DNA of 29,423 nt from a virus, in the IMG/VR virus record IMGVR_UViG_3300034072_000794, positions 1 to 29,423 of that record; one strand, given 5' to 3'. Under the pieces are notes generated by a model. It made no database searches, was not told where the DNA came from, and saw only the letters and a program-made list of their open reading frames with translations. The translations under genes were made by a program, and so were the position numbers. Shown one piece after another: positions 208-27,303 of this stretch; position 1 is the first letter of the stretch, and the number at the start of each line of letters is the position of its first letter.

Positions 208-2046
208 CTATTGATTGATTCCGAGTGCGCCGGACGTGCCCGCAGAAACAGACAGCCAGTTAGCCTGACCGATTTGCAAAAACGTGTTACGGGGTTGCGT
301 TGTACCATCGGCCAGCTGATACAGGCCGTTTTCGCCTGTTCCAATTAGTTTTCCTGTAGTGCGAATGGCCAGCGTAAAACGCTCGCCGGCACTGGCAGAG
401 ACAACTCCCGCTGCAACAGGGTTGCCAGGAATAAATCGTGGCGCGTATGTTCCGTCGCCCAGCTCGCCGTTCGCGTTGTCTCCAAAGGCGTACAGGTTTC
501 CATTTGCGTCTATTGCACAGGAATGATCGTAGGCAGCGCTAACGCTGGCCCAGTTAGACGACGACCCCACCTGAGTTGGCGTGACAGTAGAAATTGTTGA
601 GTCCAGGCCCATCGCTCCATAGGCTGATCGCCCCCACGCAAGCATCGTGTTTTCGTTGGTTATGGCGATGGCATAGGTTCCGCCAGCCGAAACAGCCTGG
701 CAGTTGCCGACAGGTACTTCGGTTAGTCCGATTTGGGAGGTACTGCTGCCAAGGCCAAGCTGCCCGTCGTCGTTTTGGCCCCATGCAAACAGTTTTCCGT
801 CACTCCTGATAGCAAAACTAAACAGCCCATTTTTGCCGGCAGATACAGCGGTAAATTGGCTGTTGGACAGCATGTACGGAGTAAAAACAGTTGACCCTGT
901 CGCGTTTCCTAACAGACCGCCAGTATTTCGTCCCCACGCAAACAACGCGCCGTCGTCGCGAATTGCAAGACTGTGGTGAAGCCCCGCGCTGACGGCCAGC
1001 CATTTGTATAAAGTGATCGGAACGGGTGTCGTTGCGTTTGTATTCGTTCCATTGCCGACCTGGCCGTAGTTGTTCAGCCCCCATGCAAACAGCATCCCGT
1101 CCGATCTGATTGCCAGCGAATGATAATTCCACGTTGACACAGCAGACCAGCTTTCCGGTGTTCCAATGGCTGTCGGCTGTGAGCGCACAGCAAGACTTCC
1201 GTTGCCGATGACCCCATAGGAGCCGGTTCCCCAGCTAAACATGGGGCCAGATGACGCCACGCCAACCGGGACAGTAAGCGTGGCCTCACCGGTGGTTAAA
1301 CCGGCAGTTCCCGTTGCCGAAAGATTGCAGCGAAATTTGTCGCCGTTGTCTGCGGCATTTGTCAGTCCCGAGAGAGACAATGTTGCCGACGTTGCTGCGC
1401 TGACGTTTTGCCACGTAGTGCCGTCGTCGCTCTTTTGCCACTGGTACGAAATGGCCGCCCCGGTTGAGTGAATGGCCGCAACATAAAACGTGGCAGCCCC
1501 GCCCGCGGCCGTCTGATTGGTGGGCTGCGCCGTGATGGTGATCGCAGGCGTTTCGGGGACGACTATCACGCCTGTGTAGTCCCCACCGTCAATGATCGAG
1601 TTTTGGTCCAGCGCCCCCACGTCGGCCGCCGTTGGCATTTGGTGAACGTGGTCAGACCTGGCCGCCTGCGACGATATGCCTGCTGTATGAATGCCTAGCG
1701 GCTCTGGCAGATCGCTGGACAGGGTGGCACCGCCGGCCCCGGCTTCGATCACGACGTCGCCAGTAAAACCGTTGACGCTGGTCACTGGGTAGGCGTGGCC
1801 GTGGCCGGAGGCGGCTTTGCCGTCGAGCGCCGTTTGGAGCCCCGTTACGTCGCTGATCGGGTGCTGGTGGGCCGCCGGCGGAAACGTGGCCGGCACCCCC
1901 TCGAGGTCGGCCCACTGCACGTCGACGCCGGGAACCGACACGCTCACCGCTCCGCCGCTGCTCACGGTGGCGGTCGTGGGCGTGGCCCCGTCAACAGTGA
2001 CGGAGTAGGCCCCCGGATTCGTGACGGTGACGGCGATCTCGCTCAC
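208..2046 (-). CDS. Tail fibre with Ig-like domain and seven-bladed RCC1 beta-propeller
   Basis: 612 residues. Residues 1-45 resemble the start of the small protein at 3072-3350 (both begin MSEI-x-V and are Thr/Val/Ser rich). Residues 55-140 carry phage-fibre signatures (PPAAHQHPISDVTGLQ, GHGHAYPVTSVNG, SDHVHQ-PTAADVGAL). Residues about 168-261 form an Ig-like domain (ITAQPTNQTAAGG...YQWQKSDDG...TLSLSGLT). From residue 269 to the end come seven repeats of about 49 residues. Most have the RCC1 core pattern LFAWG-x-N-x-x-G-x-L/V-G...V-S-A-G...S-x-A-I, which is enough for a closed seven-bladed propeller. It is presumably a virion surface protein for receptor or glycan binding. The DNA for the Ig/RCC1 half (about 208-1700) is visibly lower in GC than the N-terminal part, suggesting recent domain capture. 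The RCC1 call is strong; ligand and exact virion position are inference. Confidence 0.85.
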   Translation of the reverse strand: MSEIAVTVTNPGAYSVTVDGATPTTATVSSGGAVSVSVPGVDVQWADLEGVPATFPPAAHQHPISDVTGLQTALDGKAASGHGHAYPVTSVNGFTGDVVIEAGAGGATLSSDLPEPLGIHTAGISSQAARSDHVHQMPTAADVGALDQNSIIDGGDYTGVIVVPETPAITITAQPTNQTAAGGAATFYVAAIHSTGAAISYQWQKSDDGTTWQNVSAATSATLSLSGLTNAADNGDKFRCNLSATGTAGLTTGEATLTVPVGVASSGPMFSWGTGSYGVIGNGSLAVRSQPTAIGTPESWSAVSTWNYHSLAIRSDGMLFAWGLNNYGQVGNGTNTNATTPVPITLYKWLAVSAGLHHSLAIRDDGALFAWGRNTGGLLGNATGSTVFTPYMLSNSQFTAVSAGKNGLFSFAIRSDGKLFAWGQNDDGQLGLGSSTSQIGLTEVPVGNCQAVSAGGTYAIAITNENTMLAWGRSAYGAMGLDSTISTVTPTQVGSSSNWASVSAAYDHSCAIDANGNLYAFGDNANGELGDGTYAPRFIPGNPVAAGVVSASAGERFTLAIRTTGKLIGTGENGLYQLADGTTQPRNTFLQIGQANWLSVSAGTSGALGINQ

Positions 2047-2408
2047 GGTCGGCGGGCCTCGCAGCGTCCGGAGAGGATCGTCCGCGTCTCGCCCGATGCG
2101 GTTCGGCGGAGATACCAGCGGTAGGAGACGTTCGGGTCGAGCGTGGCGGTCTGTATCTCCGTCATTGAAACGGTGAGCGTACCCGCCGCGGCGTCCACGA
2201 CCGTGACGGTCGGCGTGACGACGGTCTCGCCCGGCGTGCTTTCGCTCTCCTCGCTCGGGATGGCGAAGACGCTGGTCCCGCTCACGTAGACGACGGCCTC
2301 GAGCGTGGATGACGTGAGGTCGAACGGCAGGTCGATCGCGATCGGCAGATCGTCGCCTATGACGAATACGAGGTCGAGCTGGCCTGGTGTACGGTCAAAT
2401 GTCGGCAT
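2043..2408 (-). CDS. Baseplate/fibre-associated beta-sandwich protein (copy 2)
   Basis: 121 residues, MPTFDRTPGQLDLVFVIGDDLPIAIDLPFDL... It shares layout and key positions with the protein at 3347-3667: an MPT start, F-x-x-G-D-D, I-D-F/L-x-x-D-x-T, A-V-V-Y, a central Thr/Val stretch (TVTVVDAAAGTLTVSMT), then Y-x-W-x-L and G-x-T-R-T-x-L-x-G-x-C-E at the end. This resembles N-terminal domains of upper-baseplate or fibre-anchor proteins of siphoviruses, but the similarity is too weak to name it. Its stop overlaps the start of the RCC1 fibre by 4 nt (ATGA), so it is probably made with, and may anchor or chaperone, that fibre. Confidence 0.55.
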   Translation of the reverse strand: MPTFDRTPGQLDLVFVIGDDLPIAIDLPFDLTSSTLEAVVYVSGTSVFAIPSEESESTPGETVVTPTVTVVDAAAGTLTVSMTEIQTATLDPNVSYRWYLRRTASGETRTILSGRCEARRP

Positions 2409-2409
2409 A

Positions 2410-3075
2410 TCAGAACGTCCCCCCGTCCAGCGTAACGCCGTCGATCGTCCCGCCGGTGATCGCGACGGCGTTCGCCGCCTGCGTTGCCATCGAGCCGAGG
2501 CCGAGGTTCGTCCTTGCGACCGCGTTGTCGGTCAGGTCCGACAGGTTCGCGGACTTGACGAGCTTCTCTCCCAGGCTGGTCGCGATCGTCGTCGAGAAGC
2601 TGGCGTCGTTCCCCAGGGCCGCGGCCAACTCTTGAAGCGTGTCAAGGGCGGCCCCGGCCCCGTTGACCAGGTTCGAGATCGCGGTCGAAACGTAAGCCGT
2701 TGTGGCGATCTGCGTCGTGTTCGTGCCGGCCGTGGCCGTGGGGGCCGTTGGCGTGCCGGTGAGGGCCGGGGAGGCGAGCGGGGCGTAGGTGGCCGAGACG
2801 GTGGACGAAGTGGCGTACGTTGAGGAGGCCGAGGCCTGCGTGAGGTAGGTCGACGACGCGGTCGCGCTGGTCAGGTACGTCGAGGCGGCCGTCGCGCTCG
2901 TCAGGTAGGCCCCAGGCCCGCCGATGGCGACGACGGTCGCCGTCCCGCCGCTGCCCTGGCCGACGTAGAGGATCTGGTCGACTTCGCTGTATGCCAGCTC
3001 GGACTGGAGCAGGCTCGAAGGAGCCCCGGTCGCTCCACCAGCTGCACGGCGTCGGATTCGGTACGGTGTCGTCAC
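2410..3075 (-). CDS. Phage tail fibre protein with decapeptide repeats
   Basis: 221 residues. The N terminus (MTTPYRIRRRAAGGATG...SELAYSEVDQILYVGQG) is the common phage-fibre pattern in which a short particle-attachment segment precedes the shaft. Residues 57-96 are four ten-residue repeats of the type YLTSATAxST. They are followed by SPALTGTPTAPTATAGTNTT and QIATTAYVSTAI, a block very widespread in tail fibres, and by LVKSANLSDLTDNAVARTNLGLGS, another classic fibre motif. The start overlaps the end of the upstream collagen-like gene by 4 nt. Role: shaft or side-fibre component of the tail tip. No receptor-binding head domain is visible at the C terminus, so binding may rely on partners such as the RCC1 fibre. 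Confidence 0.8.
   Translation of the reverse strand: MTTPYRIRRRAAGGATGAPSSLLQSELAYSEVDQILYVGQGSGGTATVVAIGGPGAYLTSATAASTYLTSATASSTYLTQASASSTYATSSTVSATYAPLASPALTGTPTAPTATAGTNTTQIATTAYVSTAISNLVNGAGAALDTLQELAAALGNDASFSTTIATSLGEKLVKSANLSDLTDNAVARTNLGLGSMATQAANAVAITGGTIDGVTLDGGTF
2788..2907 (-). repeat. Four 30-bp coding repeats in the fibre shaft
   Basis: Four in-frame 30-bp units encode YLTSATAAST, YLTSATASST, YLTQASASST and YATSSTVSAT. The array can change length by slippage or recombination, which would change shaft length. Confidence 0.75.
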
Positions 3076-3350
3076 CAGTTGCCTCCGTCGATTGCTTCCG
3101 CGTTGATCCAGGCCCCAACGTCGGCCGAGTAGGTCAAGACGTCGCCGTCATTCACCCCGACGAGCTGGACGTCTTCAGCGGCCCCGAGAGCGTCACCGGG
3201 CGGCCCTTGGATCCCTTGCGGGCCTTGCGGGCCGACGCCGCCAGTGGTGGTCGTCGAGACGCTGGAGGCGGCCACGGTGGCCGACACGGTGCCGGCGGTG
3301 GCCGAGACGGTGATCGGGCTCGACGAGGCCTGGACGGTGATCTCGCTCAT
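3072..3350 (-). CDS. Small collagen-like virion protein
   Basis: 92 residues from an ATG at 3348-3350, which overlaps the upstream stop (ATGA). The frame stays open further upstream, but that part overlaps the whole preceding gene and is not the real start. Residues 1-38 are a Ser/Thr/Val-rich beta-type segment starting MSEITVQASSSPITV. Residues 39-53 form a short collagen-like run of Gly-x-x triplets (GPQGPQGIQGPPGD). The C terminus (QLVGVNDGDVLTYSADVGAW) is a pattern seen in phage head-fibre and tail-fibre proteins. It is likely a trimerising decoration or fibre-linker protein. The N terminus resembles that of the RCC1 fibre. Confidence 0.65.
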   Translation of the reverse strand: MSEITVQASSSPITVSATAGTVSATVAASSVSTTTTGGVGPQGPQGIQGPPGDALGAAEDVQLVGVNDGDVLTYSADVGAWINAEAIDGGNW

Positions 3351-14537: not shown

Positions 14538-15230
14538 TTAAGAAAGCTGGACGGCAACAGTAATTGCGAGCGATCCAGACGATGTATCTACGTCAAAGGG
14601 CGTTGGTGGAGACCCCCCTAGGTCGACCAAAATCGGCGGCTGCGGAAGCTGTGCAAGCTGCTGGCCGCTAAACAAAGCCTGATCCGGCTTGGGCTCGCAA
14701 TCGAAATGACGTGGCCCGAATAACGCAGTTTGGGGCTCATGTGCGTATTGCTCGTATTCGGCCTCGTATCGCGAGCAAGCCGTGCCGGAATACGCTGGAG
14801 TCGTAACGCACTGCATTTGCGCTGCCGTCTTAAACGGCAAAGAGCCGTTCATTGTTGCCCTGTACCAATAATAAGCCGGAAATGTAACGGAAAGTCTCCA
14901 GTATCCGGATGTCGAAAGTGCCTGAGACAAATACAAGGATACCGCCGGCTGAGCGCATCCAATGGGATCGGCCGGCAGCGTTACAGACCAGAGCGTCGGC
15001 GATTGTTTCGCAAGTTGGAATGTTCCGTTGATTGACTGAACCGGTATTGCGTGCGTGTATTGATCAAATGCACCAGACAAGCATGGGGCCGCCTTTCTAT
15101 AGTTGCGAACCCACCACGTATTGCTGGTCGTGATGGCGACCGTGATCGCGTTTACGGTGTCCAGAGCGCACTGGGGATCAGGGCAGCAGTACCACCCACT
15201 GCAACACGGCGAACAATCTCCTCCCAGCAT
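14538..15230 (-). CDS. Cys-rich virion-type protein of unknown function
   Basis: 230 residues from ATG 15228-15230, which shares a base with the upstream stop. The N terminus MLGGDCSPCCSGWYCCPDPQ has seven Cys in 24 residues and could form a metal or disulfide knot. The rest alternates strands and aromatic residues (NTWWVRNYRK, YWRLSVTFPAYYWYR) with paired Cys (QCVTTPAYSGTACSR). It looks like an extracellular beta protein. Position after the distal-tail genes suggests a tail-tip or receptor-interaction role. Its DNA is lower in GC than the tail genes, pointing to acquired sequence. Confidence 0.6.
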   Translation of the reverse strand: MLGGDCSPCCSGWYCCPDPQCALDTVNAITVAITTSNTWWVRNYRKAAPCLSGAFDQYTHAIPVQSINGTFQLAKQSPTLWSVTLPADPIGCAQPAVSLYLSQALSTSGYWRLSVTFPAYYWYRATMNGSLPFKTAAQMQCVTTPAYSGTACSRYEAEYEQYAHEPQTALFGPRHFDCEPKPDQALFSGQQLAQLPQPPILVDLGGSPPTPFDVDTSSGSLAITVAVQLS

Positions 15231-15574
15231 CACGCGCACTCCGCCGCGATGAGGATCCACCCGGGGCCGAGGCTCGCGCAGGCCACCTTTTTCGTCCCGC
15301 TCGACACGGTCACAGTCGCGAACCAGTTCTTCGCGGTGAACGTCCGGGCCGGGCTAAACGCGGAGCCGTCGGGCTTGAGCTGCGTCACGGTGGCCGTGTT
15401 GCCTTTCGTCCAGGTGGCCGAGATCGAGCCGAGGCGGATTTCCGTCCCGTCGTCGCCGGCCGTCCGCAGCGTCACCGGCGCGAGGTCGCGGTCGCCACGC
15501 TCGGCGTCCCGGACGACGCGGGAGATCCGCTTCACGTCGCGGCGGCCGAACGTGATCTTCTCACGGCGGGCCAT
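15230..15574 (-). CDS. Minor tail-type protein
   Basis: 114 residues, MARREKITFGRRDVKRISRV... The N terminus is basic and helical (VRDAERGDRDLAPVTLR). The remainder is strand-rich with Thr/Ala/Lys (TWTKGNTATVTQL, ARTFTAKNWFATVTVSSGTK), a composition seen in small beta-sandwich tail parts. Both ends overlap neighbours by one base. Its place between the 301-residue tail protein and the Cys-rich proteins suggests a baseplate or tip component; no family is recognised. Confidence 0.55.
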   Translation of the reverse strand: MARREKITFGRRDVKRISRVVRDAERGDRDLAPVTLRTAGDDGTEIRLGSISATWTKGNTATVTQLKPDGSAFSPARTFTAKNWFATVTVSSGTKKVACASLGPGWILIAAECA

Positions 15575-18358: not shown

Positions 18359-18711
18359 TTTTTTGCTTCCTCCTGAATCGCTGCGTCGTCGTTGCGGAGA
18401 ACCGTCTCCCAGCACTTCGTATAGAGGTCCATCACCTGCCGCGGGCTCGCCTCGAGCAGGGCGGCGGCCTCGGCGTCGGTGAGCTTCCGCTTCCCGTGCG
18501 AGTCGGCCACGCAAACGGCGATCGTCCGGGCAATCAGCTCGGCCGGCGGGTCGAGCTTCTCGGCCCCGCACTTCCGGTGAGCGATCGTGATCTCGTGCCA
18601 TTCCTTGAACGTGGGCACGCGAAGCCGGACGGGCTTCGTGGCCCCGGCGGGCATCACTTCGACGGTCTCGGGAGCGGACGCCCCGAAGATGTCCTCGGCT
18701 GTGGTTGGCAT
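18355..18711 (-). CDS. Tail assembly chaperone (G-type)
   Basis: 118 residues, MPTTAEDIFGASAPETVEVM... The pattern VRLRVPTFKEWHEITIAH then a helical domain with LIARTIAVCVADSHGKRKLT and TDAEAAALLEASPRQVMDLY is typical of phage tail chaperones (a substrate-like strand domain followed by helices). It ends EEAKN* directly on the slippery heptamer, so most ribosomes make this short form and a few the longer GT form. Start overlaps the end of the second tail-tube gene by one base. Confidence 0.8.
   Translation of the reverse strand: MPTTAEDIFGASAPETVEVMPAGATKPVRLRVPTFKEWHEITIAHRKCGAEKLDPPAELIARTIAVCVADSHGKRKLTDAEAAALLEASPRQVMDLYTKCWETVLRNDDAAIQEEAKN
18358..18364 (-). other. Programmed -1 ribosomal frameshift site (A-AAA-AAC)
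   Basis: On the minus strand the zero-frame codons GCA-AAA-AAC-TAA contain the X-XXY-YYZ heptamer A-AAA-AAC immediately before the stop. Slipping one base back gives AAA-CTA-AAG-AGC and opens the 107-codon extension. GGAGG lies just upstream (about 18369-18373), a known stimulator of -1 slippage when close to the slip site. Confidence 0.8.
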
Positions 18712-19100
18712 CAGATGAAAAACCCTGTGAACACGAAAGTCGCGGACCCGCGGAGCTTCTCTCCGACGGCGGCCTCCAGTTCCAGACTCTCCAGGTAGGC
18801 CAGACCAAGCAATGAGCCTCCCGACGGCAGAGCGAAGGCCAGTTGGCCGATCCGGCCGATGTCGGCCCGGCTGAAAACGGTCGGCCCGACGAACTGGATC
18901 GCCAGCGCGCCGGGATCGACGCTCGTCGGGTTCACCTGGAGGAGAACGCGTGAGTTCGCGCCCTCGCCGATCACGGGCGAGAGGAGGTTCGTGCAGTCGA
19001 ACTTCCCGCCGACGGCCTGGGAGGCTTGGACGTTGGTCAGGCTGCCCAGCAGCTGGCCCGCGAAGTAGACCGTCGCGCCCTGGGCGTCGGCGAATGGCAT
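18711..19100 (-). CDS. Second tail-tube-like protein (paralogue)
   Basis: 129 residues, MPFADAQGATVYFAGQLLGS... Start (MP-x-AD-x-QG-T/A-T-x-x-F) and end (LELEAAVGEK-L/I-R/K-G-S/T-ATFVF) match those of the protein at 19120-19488, while the middle differs. The shared ends fit a tail-tube beta-barrel. One copy may build the tube and the other a terminal or decoration ring, or the two may alternate. It lies 19 bp from the first copy and directly before the chaperone genes. Confidence 0.7.
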   Translation of the reverse strand: MPFADAQGATVYFAGQLLGSLTNVQASQAVGGKFDCTNLLSPVIGEGANSRVLLQVNPTSVDPGALAIQFVGPTVFSRADIGRIGQLAFALPSGGSLLGLAYLESLELEAAVGEKLRGSATFVFTGFFI

Positions 19101-19119: not shown

Positions 19120-19488
19120 TCAGCCCTTGATGACGAACGTCGCCGTTCCCTTGATCTTCTCTCCGACCGCCGCTTCGAGTTCGAACTCGGTGCAGCGGGC
19201 GTCGTCGTTCAGGCCGAACTTCGCACAGACGAGCGTCAGCTCGTCTTCGGTGTTCGGCTCGTCGTCGCCCAGGTAGGAAAGCGAGATCTCGATCGAGCGG
19301 CCGGCCGGGCCGTAGTCGTACAGGGCCGGGGCTTCGTAGACCTTGTCGGCCCCGCTGGCGAGGTCGAGCGTCGACACGTCGACGTCCTGGTCGTAGCCTT
19401 TGCCGGTCTTCTTCACCTTGATGTTCGTCGCCGAGAAGGTCACGGTCCCGAACTGGAAGGTCGTCCCCTGCGAGTCGGCTACTGGCAT
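19120..19488 (-). CDS. Major tail (tube) protein
   Basis: 122 residues, MPVADSQGTTFQFGTVTFSA... The strand-rich sequence with TNIKVKKTGKGYDQDVDVST, YEAPALYDYGPAGRSIEISL and the end EFELEAAVGEKIKGTATFVI fits the small siphovirus tube proteins. Position after the tail terminator and before the chaperone and tape measure is the canonical one. Its C-terminal strand is shared with the next gene. No Ig-like C-terminal domain is present. Confidence 0.8.
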   Translation of the reverse strand: MPVADSQGTTFQFGTVTFSATNIKVKKTGKGYDQDVDVSTLDLASGADKVYEAPALYDYGPAGRSIEISLSYLGDDEPNTEDELTLVCAKFGLNDDARCTEFELEAAVGEKIKGTATFVIKG

Positions 19489-21360: not shown

Positions 21361-22551
21361 TCAGCTGGCGACAACCAGCTTCGACACGTACTCGGGGGCA
21401 TGGTTGGCAATGCCGGCCCGCTGCTTCGCGACGAAGAGGACCTGATCGTTCACGGCCCGGACTTCGCGAAGAGCCTCGACCCGGAGGCCGCTGGCCTTCA
21501 CCGCCACCGCGGTTGCCATGCCGAAGTCGCCATACAGGGCGAGCGTCCCGGCGGGCAGACCGTTGGTGACGTAGACCGGGCGACCGAACACCGTCGGGGC
21601 CATCGCGTCGGAGAGCATGACCGAGCCCGTGTTCGCGTGAGCCGCGAGCAGAGCCGAGAAGCCGACCGGGCTCACGACCCAGCTGGTGTTGGTGGCGAGC
21701 GGGTCGATCTTGCCGACCATGTCGGCCAGCTCGGTCGCGGTCGTCGACGGAGCGTCGGCGACCTCGATCGTATTGCCAACCGAAACTTCGCCGACCAGGC
21801 CGTCGATCCCGGCGGTCACGTCACCTTGGAGCCACGCGTAGTCGATCTTCGACGCGAAGGCGTTCGACACGCTGGAGGCGAACAGGGCGGCGACGTCGAT
21901 CACCGAGTCCTCGAGGAGGTCGTTCGAGACCGCCGTCAGGCTCCGGAGACCGAAGAGCGTCACGTCCACCGCGGAGGTCGCGATGTCCGTCAGGCTGCCT
22001 TCGGCGGCCTCCGAGTAGAACGCAGCGGTCGCGTCGCCAGCCTTCGGAAGGCTGATCTTGTTGCTGATCGTCGAGAAGACGCTCGCCACGCGGAGACCGA
22101 CCGAGGTCCGGGTCATCGCGTTGATGATCGAGCCATACAGTTCGACTGGCACGTATTCCTTGCCGGCACCCACGCCGCCGGTCGACATCGCCCGCAGTTC
22201 GCCACGGGCCAGACCGCGGAGGTACTCGCCGGAGGTGACGGCCTGGGCCACGTCGTCGAAGCCCTTCGCGGACTTGGCGACATGGATCGCCGGAGCCTTG
22301 CGGGGCTCGGCAGGAGTCGTCGACACGGCGGCCTGGAGGGCAGCCAGGTCGGCGGCCCGCTTCTGCTCCACGGCGTCGGCGGCCTCGAGCAGGGCCGGCA
22401 GTTCAGCAGCCCGAGCGGACGCGGCTTCGAGCTGCGTTTCAAACTCCGACCGCTCTTCGGCGGTCGCGGCGGCGTCCCGCTTCGCGGTGAGCTCTTCGAT
22501 CTTGGCAATGACCTGGGCGGACTCGTCGCGGAGAAGGCGGGACTGGCTCAT
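21361..22551 (-). CDS. Major capsid protein, HK97 fold, with N-terminal delta domain
   Basis: 396 residues from ATG 22549-22551, preceded by AAGGAAG; the frame continues 15 codons upstream without a better start. Residues 1-90 are a charged coiled coil (QVIAKIEELTAKRDAAATAE, LEAASARAAELPALLEAADA), the scaffold-like delta domain removed by the prohead protease. The shell domain shows GVGAGKEYVPVELYGSIINAM, GLRVASVFSTISNKISLPKA, SEAAEGSLTDI, TAVSNDLLEDS and the C-terminal LYGDFGMATAVAVKASGLRV, all typical of HK97-type capsids. It has its own leader (22552-22635) and a 3' hairpin, consistent with high expression. Confidence 0.92.
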   Translation of the reverse strand: MSQSRLLRDESAQVIAKIEELTAKRDAAATAEERSEFETQLEAASARAAELPALLEAADAVEQKRAADLAALQAAVSTTPAEPRKAPAIHVAKSAKGFDDVAQAVTSGEYLRGLARGELRAMSTGGVGAGKEYVPVELYGSIINAMTRTSVGLRVASVFSTISNKISLPKAGDATAAFYSEAAEGSLTDIATSAVDVTLFGLRSLTAVSNDLLEDSVIDVAALFASSVSNAFASKIDYAWLQGDVTAGIDGLVGEVSVGNTIEVADAPSTTATELADMVGKIDPLATNTSWVVSPVGFSALLAAHANTGSVMLSDAMAPTVFGRPVYVTNGLPAGTLALYGDFGMATAVAVKASGLRVEALREVRAVNDQVLFVAKQRAGIANHAPEYVSKLVVAS

Positions 22552-22635
22552 GTGTCTTCCTTGATTCGTGAGGGTGTTCCGAAAACTCCCCCGCACGATA
22601 GGAACGCCGGCGCGAGCCGTTGAAGTTGCTGCGTA

Positions 22636-22938
22636 CTACCGTAGGACGGTTTTCGCTGGCAGCGGGCACTTGCCGTCAGGGCAGGGGAGCCGCTCGAGCG
22701 TCTCGCACTGCGGGCAGTCGGTGCGATGGCCGTCGCCATGCACGATGTACCCACGTCCGTTACAACTCCTGCACTTGCCGTCAGGCGTGGGCTTCGGGTC
22801 GGGTTGCGGGGCGGCCGTGCCGGTCGCAAAGGTCGCGTAGGCCGCGGCGACTGCGGCCGTGGCCTTTGGGGCTTCGCGGTCGATCGCCACGGGGTCGGCA
22901 GTCAGGCTTGCCAGCCAGGCCAGGAGTGAACGCCACAT
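22636..22938 (-). CDS. Membrane-anchored protein with DnaJ-type CxxC zinc motif
   Basis: 100 residues from ATG 22936-22938 with GGGAGGGG 6 nt upstream (a GTG one codon before is possible). Residues 1-17 (MWRSLLAWLASLTADPV) form a short hydrophobic helix, and residues about 25-45 are Ala-rich. The C-terminal half has CRSCNGRGYIVHGDGHRTDC then PQCE and a further Cys pair in PCPDGKC. The first block is a DnaJ-like CxxCxGxG zinc knuckle. Last gene of the membrane cassette before the capsid leader. Function unknown. Confidence 0.6.
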   Translation of the reverse strand: MWRSLLAWLASLTADPVAIDREAPKATAAVAAAYATFATGTAAPQPDPKPTPDGKCRSCNGRGYIVHGDGHRTDCPQCETLERLPCPDGKCPLPAKTVLR

Positions 22939-23192
22939 CACCAGCCCCTCCCGAAGTCGAGGTGATCGTCACCGCGGCCGGCGACGTGTTGCGGCTTCGG
23001 CTGGGGCTTCGGCGGCTCCTCGGCCACAAGCGAGACCCAGAGCAGCGTCTTCGCCGCCCGGGCGATCCACTTCAGGACCGGACGCTGGTCGAGTGGCTTC
23101 GGCCGCACGTCGGGGGCCGAGCTGCTCGAGGACCATGAGCCGAGCCAGAGACAGACGATACAGATCAGCACGGTGTTACGGTCGAACTTCAT
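22938..23192 (-). CDS. Small membrane protein (84 aa)
   Basis: ATG 23190-23192. The N terminus (NTVLICIVCLWLGSWSSSSS) is a single membrane segment or an uncleaved signal, followed by a polar Ser/Pro part. A second hydrophobic patch lies at WIARAAKTLLWVSLVAEE, then a Pro/Lys linker and a charged tail (HVAGRGDDHLDF). It overlaps the protease gene by 17 bp and the next gene by 1-4 bp. Could be a holin or spanin partner by size and layout; nothing specific proves this. Confidence 0.5.
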   Translation of the reverse strand: MKFDRNTVLICIVCLWLGSWSSSSSAPDVRPKPLDQRPVLKWIARAAKTLLWVSLVAEEPPKPQPKPQHVAGRGDDHLDFGRGW

Positions 23193-24243
23193 CGGCGACA
23201 GTCTCCGGGCGAAGGCGTGGCGGTGGCTGGAACCATTGTCCGTGGTTGAGATCGCGGAAGCCGAAGCCGTCGATCGAGCCGACGGCGAAGGAGTCGCCGC
23301 CCGACAACATGCGATCGGCGACGGCCTTCTCGACCCAGAAGGATCCCTCGGGCTGATCGTCGGGCCAACGTGGTCCGCCCACGTAGGACGGTCCCCAGCT
23401 ATTCAAACAGAGCAGGCCCGGGCGGCTGCCGTAGCGGACCGCGATGAAGCACATACAGTGAGCCCAATGGCCAGAGGCTTTGCAGAAGCCGTCGGCGTCG
23501 CGGAGCGAGTTGAAGCCCTGCATGGAGCAGACGACAACCGGATACCCGCTCTCGATCGCGGCGGCCGCCTCGGCCCAGGTCTTCACGAGGCTGACGTACT
23601 TCGCGGGGTGCCGCTTCGCTTCGGCGTCGAGCTTGCCGCCGTCGCCCTGGCCGCCGTTGCCGTAGTTGCCCCAGTCCTTCGCCCGCTTCGCACTGTAGGC
23701 CGTGAGGTCGTGGCCGCCGATCGGCTCGCGGTAGATCACGCCCCAGTCCCGGCACCAGCGAGCAGCGGCTCCGCCGTACGATCCATCGGACCACCCGCCG
23801 CCGCCTTCGGGCTTGTTACGGGCCTCGACGCGGCTGCCGCCGTAGATGCTCTCGGTTGCTGGAGCCATCGGAGGTTCCGGCAGCCGGCCGAGGTCCCAGT
23901 CGATCGCCTGGGAGATCCAGACCCCATGAGCCCAGCCCCAGGAAACACAGTCCCCGATCCCTTGCTCGCCGACGACAAACGGCTTGCTATAGCGGGCCTG
24001 GTGGGCTTTGTAGAGAGCCCGATAGAGGAACGTGTCTTCCCCCTTCGCCTGGCGGATCGCGTCGGCTCCGGCTTGGGAGAAGAGCGGCTGGTCGAGTTCC
24101 TTCAGAAACTCCGCGACGCCTTCAGGGTTGGGCGTGTACCCAAAGTTTTCCTGACGGGGCGGAACCGGCACGTAGTAGGCCGCCAGGACCAGGGCGGCGA
24201 TCAGAAGAACCGCCGCGGCCAGGACGCGTTCACTTCGTTGCAT
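23176..24243 (-). CDS. Membrane-anchored papain-like (C1-type) cysteine protease
   Basis: 355 residues. Residues 7-24 (VLAAAVLLIAALVLAAYY) are one N-terminal membrane segment. The peptidase region shows the papain-like triad: Cys99 in GEQGIGDCVSWGWAHG (compare bacterial xQGxxGSCVA), His262 in ASGHWAHCMCFIAVR and Asn281 in LLCLNSWGPSYVGG, the NSWG motif being diagnostic. Gln94 is the likely oxyanion residue. The catalytic domain would face outside the cytoplasm if the helix is a signal anchor. Possible roles: attack on the host envelope at lysis or entry, or processing of virion proteins. No standard endolysin was found elsewhere, which favours lysis, but this is inference. Confidence 0.75.
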   Translation of the reverse strand: MQRSERVLAAAVLLIAALVLAAYYVPVPPRQENFGYTPNPEGVAEFLKELDQPLFSQAGADAIRQAKGEDTFLYRALYKAHQARYSKPFVVGEQGIGDCVSWGWAHGVWISQAIDWDLGRLPEPPMAPATESIYGGSRVEARNKPEGGGGWSDGSYGGAAARWCRDWGVIYREPIGGHDLTAYSAKRAKDWGNYGNGGQGDGGKLDAEAKRHPAKYVSLVKTWAEAAAAIESGYPVVVCSMQGFNSLRDADGFCKASGHWAHCMCFIAVRYGSRPGLLCLNSWGPSYVGGPRWPDDQPEGSFWVEKAVADRMLSGGDSFAVGSIDGFGFRDLNHGQWFQPPPRLRPETVADEVRP

Positions 24244-24679
24244 CGGAGCAGGCCCTCGCGATGTCGCGGAACGCGGCGACCCACGCCCGGCGGGCCTCGA
24301 CGCTGACCGGGCCGCCCGACGTGCCGAGCTTGCCTTCCAGGTAGTCCTGGATCGCTTGCCGGACCTTTGGCTGCCGGGCTCCGATCGAGACGCCCTTCAT
24401 CCGGTAGTCGGCGGCGGCGATCCGCAGGTCGTCCAGGGCGACGCCGGTCTTCAGTCGCGGGGCGGCGGTCGTGCCGTCGTACTCGATCGCTTCGGCGAGC
24501 GAGTCGCACAGCGCCCCGAACGCGACCGCGTCGTCGGCTGCCGTCGGGCCGATAAAGAGCCCGCGAAGGTCGAGGCCGGCGGGGGCCGGGGCCGGGCCTG
24601 GGGGCGTCTTGTCACCACTGGCCAGCCACATTCCGGCAGCCAGGACAACGAAGCCGGCGGCGATCGCGAGGCGGCTCAT
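24230..24679 (-). CDS. Exported/membrane-anchored protein of the protease cassette
   Basis: 149 residues, ATG 24677-24679 overlapping the upstream stop (ATGA). MSRLAIAAGFVVLAAGMWLA is a signal-anchor helix with no lipobox Cys. A Pro-rich linker (PPGPAPAPAG) leads to a helical domain (LDLRGLFIGPTAADDAVAFG, LCDSLAEAIEYDG, VRQAIQDYLEGKLG) that would lie outside the membrane. It overlaps the protease gene by 14 bp. Not recognised. Confidence 0.5.
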   Translation of the reverse strand: MSRLAIAAGFVVLAAGMWLASGDKTPPGPAPAPAGLDLRGLFIGPTAADDAVAFGALCDSLAEAIEYDGTTAAPRLKTGVALDDLRIAAADYRMKGVSIGARQPKVRQAIQDYLEGKLGTSGGPVSVEARRAWVAAFRDIARACSDATK

Positions 24680-24921
24680 TTGTCGCTCCCTGCCGTCAGG
24701 GCCAGCTGGAGCGTGTCGATCGCCGTCCGCTCGGCGTCGCCAAGCAGCTCGCCGGCGACCAGCCGGTGACGGACGGCGGCCAGGGCGGCCGTCGCCTCCA
24801 GGAAGGTCGCGACCTTCGGGTCGGCCGGCTTTGGACGCGGCGACGGGAGCGTCGGAAGTTTCGCCTTCGATGGCCAGAGGAGGACAGCGGCGGCGGCAGC
24901 CAAAAGCATGACGTATGTCAA
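24676..24921 (-). CDS. Small single-TM protein (81 aa)
   Basis: Start assigned to TTG 24919-24921, which overlaps the upstream stop (TTGA) and has GAGGG 6 nt upstream; the internal ATG at 24907-24909 is an alternative that leaves out four residues. The N terminus (VMLLAAAAAVLLWPSKA) is one hydrophobic helix, followed by a Pro/Lys linker and a helical tail (ATAALAAVRHRLVAGELLGD). Layout equals that of its downstream neighbour. Function unknown. Confidence 0.5.
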   Translation of the reverse strand: MTYVMLLAAAAAVLLWPSKAKLPTLPSPRPKPADPKVATFLEATAALAAVRHRLVAGELLGDAERTAIDTLQLALTAGSDK

Positions 24922-25259
24922 GTTGCAGCCCTCACGATCGGGAGAAGGCCTTCAATCAGCCCGCCGGCGGCCAGGATCACCAGCTGACGGGCGGCCGGGC
25001 GGACGATCATCCAGACCGGCCACACGACAACCGGGACGCACTTGTCGGCGAGCTCGTCGAACAACATCGCGATGGCCGCGACGGCCCACGCCTTCTTTTC
25101 GGAGTTCGTGGCCGGGATGGTGTCGAGGGTCGCGATCACGAGCCGGAGCAGGTCGACCGCGATCTCGGCGAAGTCGGCGATCGTGATCCCGTCGGCGGCC
25201 CGCTCCTGGGCGTCCAGGATGAAGCCCTTCACCTTGTCCGACAGTTCGTAGAGCGTCAT
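24918..25259 (-). CDS. Membrane protein, holin candidate
   Basis: 113 residues from ATG 25257-25259, overlapping the upstream stop (ATGA). The first half is amphipathic helices (LYELSDKVKGFILDAQERAA, IADFAEIAVDLLRLVIATLD). The second half has two hydrophobic stretches (AWAVAAIAMLFDELA and CVPVVVWPVWMIVRPAARQLVILAAGG, the latter given in two parts: VVVWPVWMIV and LVILAAGGLI). Size and hydrophobicity would suit a holin, but no holin family is recognised. Confidence 0.45.
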   Translation of the reverse strand: MTLYELSDKVKGFILDAQERAADGITIADFAEIAVDLLRLVIATLDTIPATNSEKKAWAVAAIAMLFDELADKCVPVVVWPVWMIVRPAARQLVILAAGGLIEGLLPIVRAAT

Positions 25260-25408
25260 CGCTTCCGCCTCCAGACTTGGTCCGCGTCCACCACTTCCCG
25301 CCGGCGGGCCTTGCACTGCGTGCACTCCAGATACCGGACCTGGAGCCCGCCAGCCCGACGGCTTGAGTCCACCTTCATTCGTTCGCCGCAGCGGCACCTA
25401 GCTGGCAT
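25256..25408 (-). CDS. Zinc-ribbon microprotein (Com-like, 50 aa)
   Basis: ATG 25406-25408 overlaps the end of the prohead protease by 11 bp; its stop overlaps the next start (ATGA). The product begins MPARCRCGERMKVDSSRRAG and has a second pair in YLECTQCKARRREVV. The four Cys (CxC...CxxC) and basic surroundings resemble the Mu Com/zinc-ribbon type of small phage RNA- or DNA-binding proteins. It heads the cassette 25408-22636 and could regulate its translation; that is inference. Confidence 0.55.
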   Translation of the reverse strand: MPARCRCGERMKVDSSRRAGGLQVRYLECTQCKARRREVVDADQVWRRKR

Positions 25409-26072
25409 AAGAGCGAAGCCTCGCGATCCGGAGGTCGGAGATCAGTCGCCGCCGGCGATCGGCCTCTTCGTCCAGCCGTCGCTGCTCGGCCTGGGCCGCC
25501 TCGGCCGCCATCAGGTTCTCGCGTCGCCACTGCTCGAGCGACCGCAGGCCGACGGACGACGACGGGTAAGCCGGACGCGTCACGACGGACACGTCGAAGA
25601 GGTTCGCGTCGGTGATCGTCCGGATCGCGTTCCCCTTGTCGTCCTGGCTCCAGTGTTCGCCCTTGTCAGCGACCGTGAAAGCGAAACTCGCGCCGGTCAG
25701 TAGGCCCGCCCGCACCAGGGCCAGGACATCCCGGGCCGCCTGCGTGTCGGGCAGGTTCGACATCTCCCAGCCGAGGCCGCGAGCTTCCTTGGACAGCCGG
25801 AGCGTTCCTGCCGTCGTCCTGGCTAGGAGGAGCGAGTCGTCATGGTTGAACAGGCCCACGACATCGGGCTTCGGCCGCGGGTCGTTCTTCGAGCGGTCGA
25901 GGATCCGGTCGAAGGCCGACGGGGCGAACTGCTCTTGGAAGCCGCCGAGGTCGACGCTCAGGCTGTTCCAGGGCGGGGCGATCCCGCGGAGCTTGGACGG
26001 TTCGCCGTCCCGCTCCTCGAGGCCGAAGCCCTCCACTGCTGCAAGGTCGAGATACCTACGCTCCGCTTCCAT
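25398..26072 (-). CDS. HK97-family prohead maturation protease
   Basis: 224 residues from ATG 26070-26072 with GGAGG upstream; the frame runs further upstream only over the portal gene. Core motifs of peptidase family U35 are present: LRGIAPPWNSLSVDLGGFQE, VVGLFNHDDSLLLART with catalytic His77, LLTGASFAFTV with Ser129, and LFDVSVVTRPAYPSSSVGLR. The C terminus is a charged coiled coil (AEAAQAEQRRLDEEADRRRR) that may hold it inside the procapsid. It removes the capsid delta domain. The usual gene order has the capsid next, but here seven genes intervene. Confidence 0.9.
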   Translation of the reverse strand: MEAERRYLDLAAVEGFGLEERDGEPSKLRGIAPPWNSLSVDLGGFQEQFAPSAFDRILDRSKNDPRPKPDVVGLFNHDDSLLLARTTAGTLRLSKEARGLGWEMSNLPDTQAARDVLALVRAGLLTGASFAFTVADKGEHWSQDDKGNAIRTITDANLFDVSVVTRPAYPSSSVGLRSLEQWRRENLMAAEAAQAEQRRLDEEADRRRRLISDLRIARLRSYAS

Positions 26073-27303
26073 CGGTGCCTCCCTGCATGTTCGTTCCGAG
26101 CGGCGCAAAGCCGAGCTGCATATACGTTTCATCGGCCGCCACGTTGCCGAGCCGGTCGAAGTCCTCCAGCCCGCGGATCTCGTTGGGCGTGATCGCTCCC
26201 AGGTTGAAGAGCGTCTGATACATGGCCGCCCGGGCGGCTCCGTCGCCCCGGAGGAGCCCGCGGTTGTCGAGCTTGCAGTACACGTCGTCTCCGTAGGTGC
26301 TCAGGAGCGAGCGGTCGATCGTCTGCTCGAACCGCCGCAGCCAGGGCAGGATCGTGAACACCTGGACCGACAGGAACTCCTGCTCCACGCTGGCCCAACG
26401 GCCGGCGGCTTCGTGGCCGATGATCGAGGACGGGATACCGAAGGCCCGGGCGATCTCGCCGACGATCGCGTTCCGGAGTTCCATGTACTGCGAGGCTTCG
26501 CGGCTGGAGCCTTCGACGACGCGGGCCGTCACCTTCTTCGGGAGGACGGCCGTCGACCCGGCCCGCTTTGGGCCGCCGTACATTTCCCGCCACTGTTGCC
26601 GGAGCTTCTCGATGGCCTCCGGCGGGATCGTCTCCTGGGTCTCCAGGATCACGTCCGGCCTGGCTGAGTTTTCCCAGTAGCTCGAGGCCGCGGCGTCGAG
26701 CTTGCGGGCCAGGCCGACGGCCGTCCCGCACAGTTCGCTCGGCACCAGGCCTTTGACGCCGTCGTCACTGAGCCAGCGGAAGTGGAGGATCTCGTCCCGC
26801 GAGTAGGTCCGGCCGCCCTCGGGGCCGACGTAGTCGTACACGATGTCGATCGGCTGGCCGTTGCGGTCGGCGACCAGCTTCGGAGTCACTCGCGAAGGAT
26901 GGAGCGGCAGCAGCTGCTCGGCGAAGCCGCCACGCGGGCCGGGGACGATCCGCGAGTAGGCCGAGCCCCACAGGGCGCAGTGATGGCCCATGAGTTCAAT
27001 GTACTCGTAGGACGACATCCAGAAGTTTGGGGCCTTCGAGAGCGTCCTGTAGATCGGCAGGTCGCGGGCTGGCTCGCGGCGGCCCTGGCCGATGTTCCGC
27101 ATGATGTGAATCGGGCAGCTGGCCAGGCTTTGAGCCACAAACCGGACGCAGGCCAGGATCGCCGTTACGCGGATCGCAGTCTGGGCCGTCACCGAGTCGG
27201 GACGCTCCAGGAAGAAGGGCTCGATCGCCCGCAGCTCGAACGGCTTCGCCCGGCTGCGGCGTGGGGCGGCTGGCTTCTTCGTCGCGGCGGGCTTGCGGCT
27301 CAT
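26056..27303 (-). CDS. Portal protein (HK97 family)
   Basis: 415 residues, the typical size. After a basic start, the sequence shows AIRVTAILACVRFVAQSLAS, a P-x-x-I-M-R...R-x-L-S-K-A-P-N pattern, LMGHHCALWGSAYSRIVPGP, YSRDEILHFRWLSDDGVKGL and the C-terminal IARAFGIPSSIIGHEAAGRW and LRGDGAARAAMYQTLFNLGA. These are the usual portal core, wing and stem/crown helices. Forms the dodecameric ring for DNA entry and exit. Start and end overlap the terminase and protease genes by 4 and 17 bp. Confidence 0.92.
   Translation of the reverse strand: MSRKPAATKKPAAPRRSRAKPFELRAIEPFFLERPDSVTAQTAIRVTAILACVRFVAQSLASCPIHIMRNIGQGRREPARDLPIYRTLSKAPNFWMSSYEYIELMGHHCALWGSAYSRIVPGPRGGFAEQLLPLHPSRVTPKLVADRNGQPIDIVYDYVGPEGGRTYSRDEILHFRWLSDDGVKGLVPSELCGTAVGLARKLDAAASSYWENSARPDVILETQETIPPEAIEKLRQQWREMYGGPKRAGSTAVLPKKVTARVVEGSSREASQYMELRNAIVGEIARAFGIPSSIIGHEAAGRWASVEQEFLSVQVFTILPWLRRFEQTIDRSLLSTYGDDVYCKLDNRGLLRGDGAARAAMYQTLFNLGAITPNEIRGLEDFDRLGNVAADETYMQLGFAPLGTNMQGGTDGSGA

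Follow-up and report, generated by a model that had tools for sequence, protein, structure and literature searches.

The window examined here is a viral DNA record of 29,423 bases (IMG/VR record IMGVR_UViG_3300034072_000794), which is probably a fragment, so that little can be concluded from a gene that it lacks. Its minus-strand genes encode the small and large terminase subunits, a portal protein, an S78 prohead protease, seven small proteins, a capsid protein and tail proteins, and the relatives of the window suggest that its host is a planctomycete. The subject of this analysis is the block of seven small open reading frames, designated g1 to g7, that lies between the S78 and capsid genes (Table 1). 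A preliminary description of this DNA, made from the letters alone, had reported seven overlapping small genes that split the two head genes, and this was borne out by the coordinates, each reading frame overlapping the preceding gene (by 11, 4, 4, 4, 14, 17, and 4 bp from g1 to g7).

Table 1. Genes of the block and the two genes that flank it in the window.
Feature	Coordinates	Strand	Length (amino acids)	Characteristics
S78 prohead protease	25398-26132	-		PF04586, E 6e-35; flank, outside the cassette
g1	25256-25408	-	50	CxC/CxxC zinc-ribbon-like motif; weak phrog_10675 match, E 8e-4
g2	24918-25259	-	113	Hydrophobic stretches 25-43 and 93-111
g3	24676-24921	-	81	N-terminal membrane helix; variable member
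g4	24230-24679	-	149	N-terminal membrane helix
g5	23176-24243	-	355	Papain-like cysteine protease with predicted membrane anchor; helix 7-25; Q94/C99/H262/N281
g6	22938-23192	-	84	N-terminal membrane helix
g7	22636-22941	-	101	Weak N-terminal hydrophobic helix; CxxCxGxG-type cysteine-rich segment
HK97-type major capsid protein	21361-22596	-		PF05065, E 3e-31; flank, outside the cassette

The N-terminal hydrophobic helices that had been attributed to five of these genes are clear in g3, g4, g5, and g6, with Kyte-Doolittle values of 1.5 to 2.65, and weak in g7 (1.02 in the window protein; its homologs read LWRWLISLLVWLS). The two hydrophobic stretches said to lie late in g2 were half right, as the second one does so whereas the first lies early in the protein.

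The longest product, g5, is a predicted papain-fold protease in which a single strong N-terminal helix (Kyte-Doolittle 2.65) precedes a complete set of invariant active-site residues. The catalytic residues C99, H262, and N281 had been named correctly; together with Q94, a candidate for the oxyanion hole, they were invariant across 21 diverse homologs with identities down to 54%. An AlphaFold2 model built from these 21 homologs had a mean predicted local distance difference test (pLDDT) score of 80.9, and its best PDB matches were xylellain (3ois; Z score 18.1 over 224 residues) and cathepsins. The further matches were papain-like too, and the suspected papain fold was thus confirmed in the predicted model. 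Sequence profiles (Pfam, PHROG, and PDB) did not reveal this relationship. As none of the 21 family members matched Pfam, the assignment of g5 to the papain-like (C1A-type fold) proteases is based on the fold and the active site.

A scan of viral contigs with g5 as the query yielded 60 loci, nearly all of which kept the gene order g2-(g3)-g4-g5-g6. When all loci were compared, 97 carried g5, and g4, g2, and g6 accompanied it in 94, 91, and 84 of them, respectively, indicating that the block is not a chance arrangement. This window-type cassette with g5 (hereafter type I) mostly lies between the S78 and capsid genes. Ten g5 loci longer than 10 kb showed no match to the terminase, portal, S78, or capsid of the window; in one of these (G004, 45 kb), the terminase is of the gpA type, the capsid belongs to another family, and an S49 peptidase is encoded. 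A prophage of Blastopirellula marina DSM 3645 has the type I cassette immediately before its terminase gene, a placement that recurs in other Planctomycetota prophages, and in some phages the g5 block was found beside integrase or terminase genes. The same gene order therefore recurs in other planctomycete phages, for which the preliminary description had proposed a search. As judged from these gene neighborhoods, the block is passed on, relocated, and exchanged as one piece, independently of the head module. In lambdoid phages, the lysis genes are located just before the terminase genes. The unrelated head modules and the pre-terminase sites fit a lysis cassette, rather than a virion part that is bound to one head module. 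Separately, one g5 homolog was found on a contig filed as an Alphaproteobacteria metagenome-assembled genome (L065); this contig most likely comes from a planctomycete phage and was misbinned.

The independence from the head module lowered two readings that tie the block to the virion. The alternative raised in the preliminary description, that g5 and its partners form an internal virion or DNA-entry complex that is packaged or ejected to pass the envelope, agrees with the position of the genes between the head protease and capsid genes in the window lineage; however, the block also occurs with non-homologous head modules or beside integrase and terminase genes, and an unrelated block can take its place next to unchanged head genes. 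This alternative is disfavored and appears quite improbable. A role of g5 as an extra head-processing protease in capsid maturation would likewise explain why its block adjoins the S78 and capsid genes in one lineage, but g5 carries a predicted N-terminal membrane anchor, an S78 protease with a good family match is present, and the cassette is unlinked from the head genes in other phages, which leaves this role very improbable indeed.

The replacement of the block was observed at its own position. Relatives were gathered through the portal protein of the window, irrespective of the cassette, and 20 of them had both the S78 and capsid genes in view. Between these genes, 17 carried type I, three carried a different cassette (type II), and none carried neither; therefore, the function of the cassette looks required. 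This bears on a possible accessory role in host-surface remodeling or superinfection exclusion, in which the anchored protease would strip receptors or block other phages. Genes of that kind are typically small membrane-anchored modules exchanged between phages, as here, yet accessory genes are usually patchy, whereas all 20 portal-selected relatives carry type I or type II. We consider this role rather unlikely.

In type II, g2 is retained and the rest is replaced by proteins of 88, 80, and 124 amino acids, a 290-amino-acid protein (altC), a secreted trypsin-like protease, and two further small proteins with membrane helices. The trypsin-like protease (Trypsin_2, E 3e-22) has a signal-like N-terminus and an N-terminal DnaJ-like cysteine motif, and its nearest solved relatives are DegQ and DegS. 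A scan with altC found 80 loci, 78 of them new, with a nearly constant gene order and with C82, H235, and D253 invariant in altC. In prophage homologs of altC (E 4e-13 and 5e-11), the papain-type motifs SCASHS, GHAI, and ANSWG aligned with these three residues, and altC is thus classed as papain-like from its motifs and homologs rather than from a structure, its own structure model (pLDDT 34.8) being too poor to use. Profile comparison of g5 and altC detected no sequence similarity, indicating that the two are not recognizable orthologs. In the isolate-phage collection, no relative of either protein was found.

The two cassettes exclude each other. The S78 and capsid genes were both present in 68 loci (54 distinct), a set partly chosen via the cassettes themselves; 49 of these were type I and 19 were type II, and none had both cassettes or neither. 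Across entire records, g5 was missing from 21 of the 22 type II contigs, and altC was missing from all 21 type I contigs. The sole exception, a 77-kb record with both types (G411, loci L243-L246), was rejected as a counter-example because it contains two tape-measure-like genes about 36 kb apart and probably represents two phages in one record. Furthermore, in the two genomes with the prophage homologs of altC, the altC-like gene precedes a terminase gene whose product shares 54-55% identity with the B. marina prophage terminase, and the exchange therefore seems to have occurred in a second phage lineage too.

The distribution among hosts was evaluated in 392 Planctomycetota genomes, 12 of which contained a g5 relative. 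Proteins with YTV domains were present in 42 of the 392, and all 12 g5-positive genomes were among these (nominal p 5e-13), although neither this figure nor those below for YTV and GT51 represent independent events, because the YTV-positive hosts belong to one clade. To control for prophage content, the gpA terminase was searched for as well and was found in 39 of 363 genomes, only seven of which were YTV-positive; within these 39, g5 was present in 3/7 YTV-positive versus 0/32 YTV-negative genomes (p 0.004). In addition, the peptidoglycan glycosyltransferase GT51 was missing from all eight g5-positive genomes tested and present in 10 of 14 controls. Cysteine-rich YTV proteins have been described in the walls of Rhodopirellula and Gemmataceae, and peptidoglycan genes were reported missing in most Planctomycetales (PMC8567305).

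These host data also bear on a different kind of lysis cassette, in which g5 would be a papain-like peptidoglycan endopeptidase that cuts a thin peptidoglycan instead of a wall protein. Domains of the papain family are present in lysins of mycobacteriophages (PMC3314691), one of which, a Lysin A, is a weak match of the g5 model, and peptidoglycan has been demonstrated in planctomycetes (PMC4432640). However, g5 has no recognized wall-binding domain, the DegQ-like trypsin of type II is a protein-cutting enzyme, and both the tested hosts without GT51 and the reported gene losses argue against such a substrate. An endopeptidase is therefore unlikely in our estimate, albeit not negligible.

The remaining members of the block could supply the membrane functions of a lysis system. 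g1 accompanies the HK97 lineage, where it is conserved, and is missing from most other contexts; it is therefore probably outside the core cassette. g2 is the sole gene common to types I and II and, from its helices as read by eye, is a holin candidate. A second holin-like candidate, likewise chosen by eye, is g6, which has a conserved second helix, RP(V/I)L..I.(R/K)AAK.LLW, and a GRGW-type C-terminal end. g4 stands almost always immediately before g5, and its distant relatives in two loci (L225 and L230) have a lipoprotein-like N-terminus; it probably assists or regulates g5 as its partner. None of the cassette proteins could be assigned by searches against Pfam, PHROG, and PDB sequences. No holin family matched g2, g6, or the neighbors of distant papains, though their helices are suitable, and the holin-like proteins among these neighbors had no relative among annotated phages and no convincing family match. 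In one such locus (L227, reverse complement 1499-3173), two near-duplicate membrane proteins with coiled coils, an Rz-like small protein, recognized by eye, and an 83-amino-acid holin-like protein come after the distant papain, shortly upstream of the terminase gene.

The last position of type I, occupied by g7 in the window with its cysteine-rich segment at the end of the protein, varies in content. In the B. marina prophage, an exported thioredoxin follows g6 (Thioredoxin_7, E 6e-7 in the prophage scan), and a weaker thioredoxin match, slightly short of the Pfam cut-off, was obtained in L063 (E 1e-5). A thioredoxin also follows the papain of L066 (phrog_22, E 5e-9). The L225 protein combines, on reading by eye, a cysteine-rich segment with a CGPC thioredoxin-like stretch, and had no Pfam match. 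The contents of this slot suggest disulfide chemistry, directed at either the wall of the host or the cysteine protease.

The preliminary description had interpreted the block as an unconventional lysis or envelope-attack system of a planctomycete phage, and the comparison of genomes supports this proposal. In our reading, g2 to g7 would constitute an exchangeable lysis cassette that uses proteases, perhaps together with disulfide reduction; we assign it a probability of roughly 0.6. It is the best supported reading because the cassette moves among unrelated head modules and often precedes the terminase gene, because a second protease and membrane-protein cassette replaces type I wholesale at one locus, and because the planctomycetes whose prophages carry the cassette have cysteine-rich wall proteins.

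A standard lysin, which like the lack of a papain fold would have counted as a refutation for the preliminary description, was also sought. Pfam scans of the predicted proteins of six genomes or fragments (the window, a 33-kb relative, the B. marina prophage, G004, and two type II genomes) revealed no canonical endolysin, and no Pfam lysin or peptidoglycan hydrolase domain was found among the cassette proteins. The expected contrast, canonical endolysins in YTV-negative planctomycete prophages, did not appear either, as 84 terminase-near proteins sampled from such prophages included no known lysin. With the control also lysin-free, the absence is a weak test that fits a lysis function of the cassette and does not carry it.

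Besides this control and the relatedness of the YTV-positive hosts, several observations weigh against lysis by wall proteolysis. Planctomycetes contain peptidoglycan biochemically, and lysozyme disrupts them (PMC4432640). The altC protein of type II is without a signal sequence. The cassette genes match no lysis family, the holin reading of g2 and g6 was made by eye, and the window lineage keeps the block among head genes, which is unusual for lysis genes.

If the lysis reading is correct, the N-terminus of g5 would stay in the cytoplasm and its catalytic domain would face the periplasm, with g3 and g4 supporting or regulating the protease. g2, g6, or both would act as the holin-like, membrane-disrupting component that triggers or permits the attack on the membrane, and the protein in the g7 slot, cysteine-rich or thioredoxin, would handle disulfides. 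As the infection ends, the protease might then cleave a wall or periplasmic protein of the host, with the cysteine-rich wall proteins of planctomycetes as plausible candidates, and the cell would open. The substrate is the least certain step, and peptidoglycan peptides are a less probable target. More tentatively, and with somewhat less than even odds, the system could represent a distinct kind of lysis without peptidoglycan cutting, in which an anchored papain-like protease, or a pair of papain-like and trypsin-like proteases, dismantles a cysteine-rich protein wall while an exported thioredoxin or cysteine-rich factor opens its disulfides, and in which two or more non-homologous cassettes replace each other at one locus.

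The cassette is unnamed in Pfam, PHROGs, and the literature searched, and a literature search on planctomycete phage lysis returned nothing relevant. Should the protein-wall mechanism prove true, a lysis cassette with proteases as its enzymes would form a new category. Whether peptidoglycan or cysteine-rich protein is the load-bearing material of the planctomycete wall is disputed, and a protease cassette that is kept and swapped by evolution points to protein as the target. The cassette enzymes would offer a means to test this question and, possibly, tools for opening or engineering planctomycete cells.

Several features were noted outside the block. Two adjacent minus-strand genes, d5 and d6 (18711-19100 and 19120-19488), are about 28-30% identical to each other's homologs and probably arose by duplication of a tail-tube-type gene. 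At 14538-15260, the same strand encodes a tail-region protein rich in cysteine (CSPCCSGWYCCPDPQC). One protein among those scanned from the window and G007 matched RCC1 repeats strongly (PF00415, E 1e-50), which is uncommon in the tail-region genes of phages. In L112 (4105-5088), and likewise in L114, the S78 protease has a C-terminal extension (LDFDGTF...DDSPEK) that resembles a fused HAD-type phosphatase domain.

Among known systems, the papain-type peptidase domains (N5) of mycobacteriophage Lysin A also belong to a phage envelope-cutting enzyme (PMC3314691). Unlike Lysin A, g5 is single-domain and membrane-anchored, without wall-binding domains and without a detectable sequence relation. 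In fold and catalytic residues, g5 resembles xylellain and cathepsin-type proteases, from which it differs in being phage-encoded and membrane-anchored, with about 15% identity and no Pfam match. The trypsin-like protease of type II shares the Trypsin_2 domain and signal-like N-terminus with DegQ/HtrA trypsins, but it belongs to a phage cassette and has an additional DnaJ-like cysteine motif as a fusion, with no PDZ domain reported. Signal-arrest-release endolysins such as P1 Lyz have an N-terminal, often Ala/Gly-rich helix and a catalytic domain outside the membrane. By analogy, g5 could share this topology and, possibly, redox control of its catalytic cysteine, although it is a protease and not a muramidase and its helix in the window is strongly hydrophobic. 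Finally, although its enzyme is a protease from no peptidoglycan hydrolase family and its holin and spanin roles are putative, the cassette is like the holin-endolysin-spanin cassettes of lambdoid phages in being a compact, exchangeable set of small membrane proteins with one envelope-cutting enzyme, often placed before the terminase gene.

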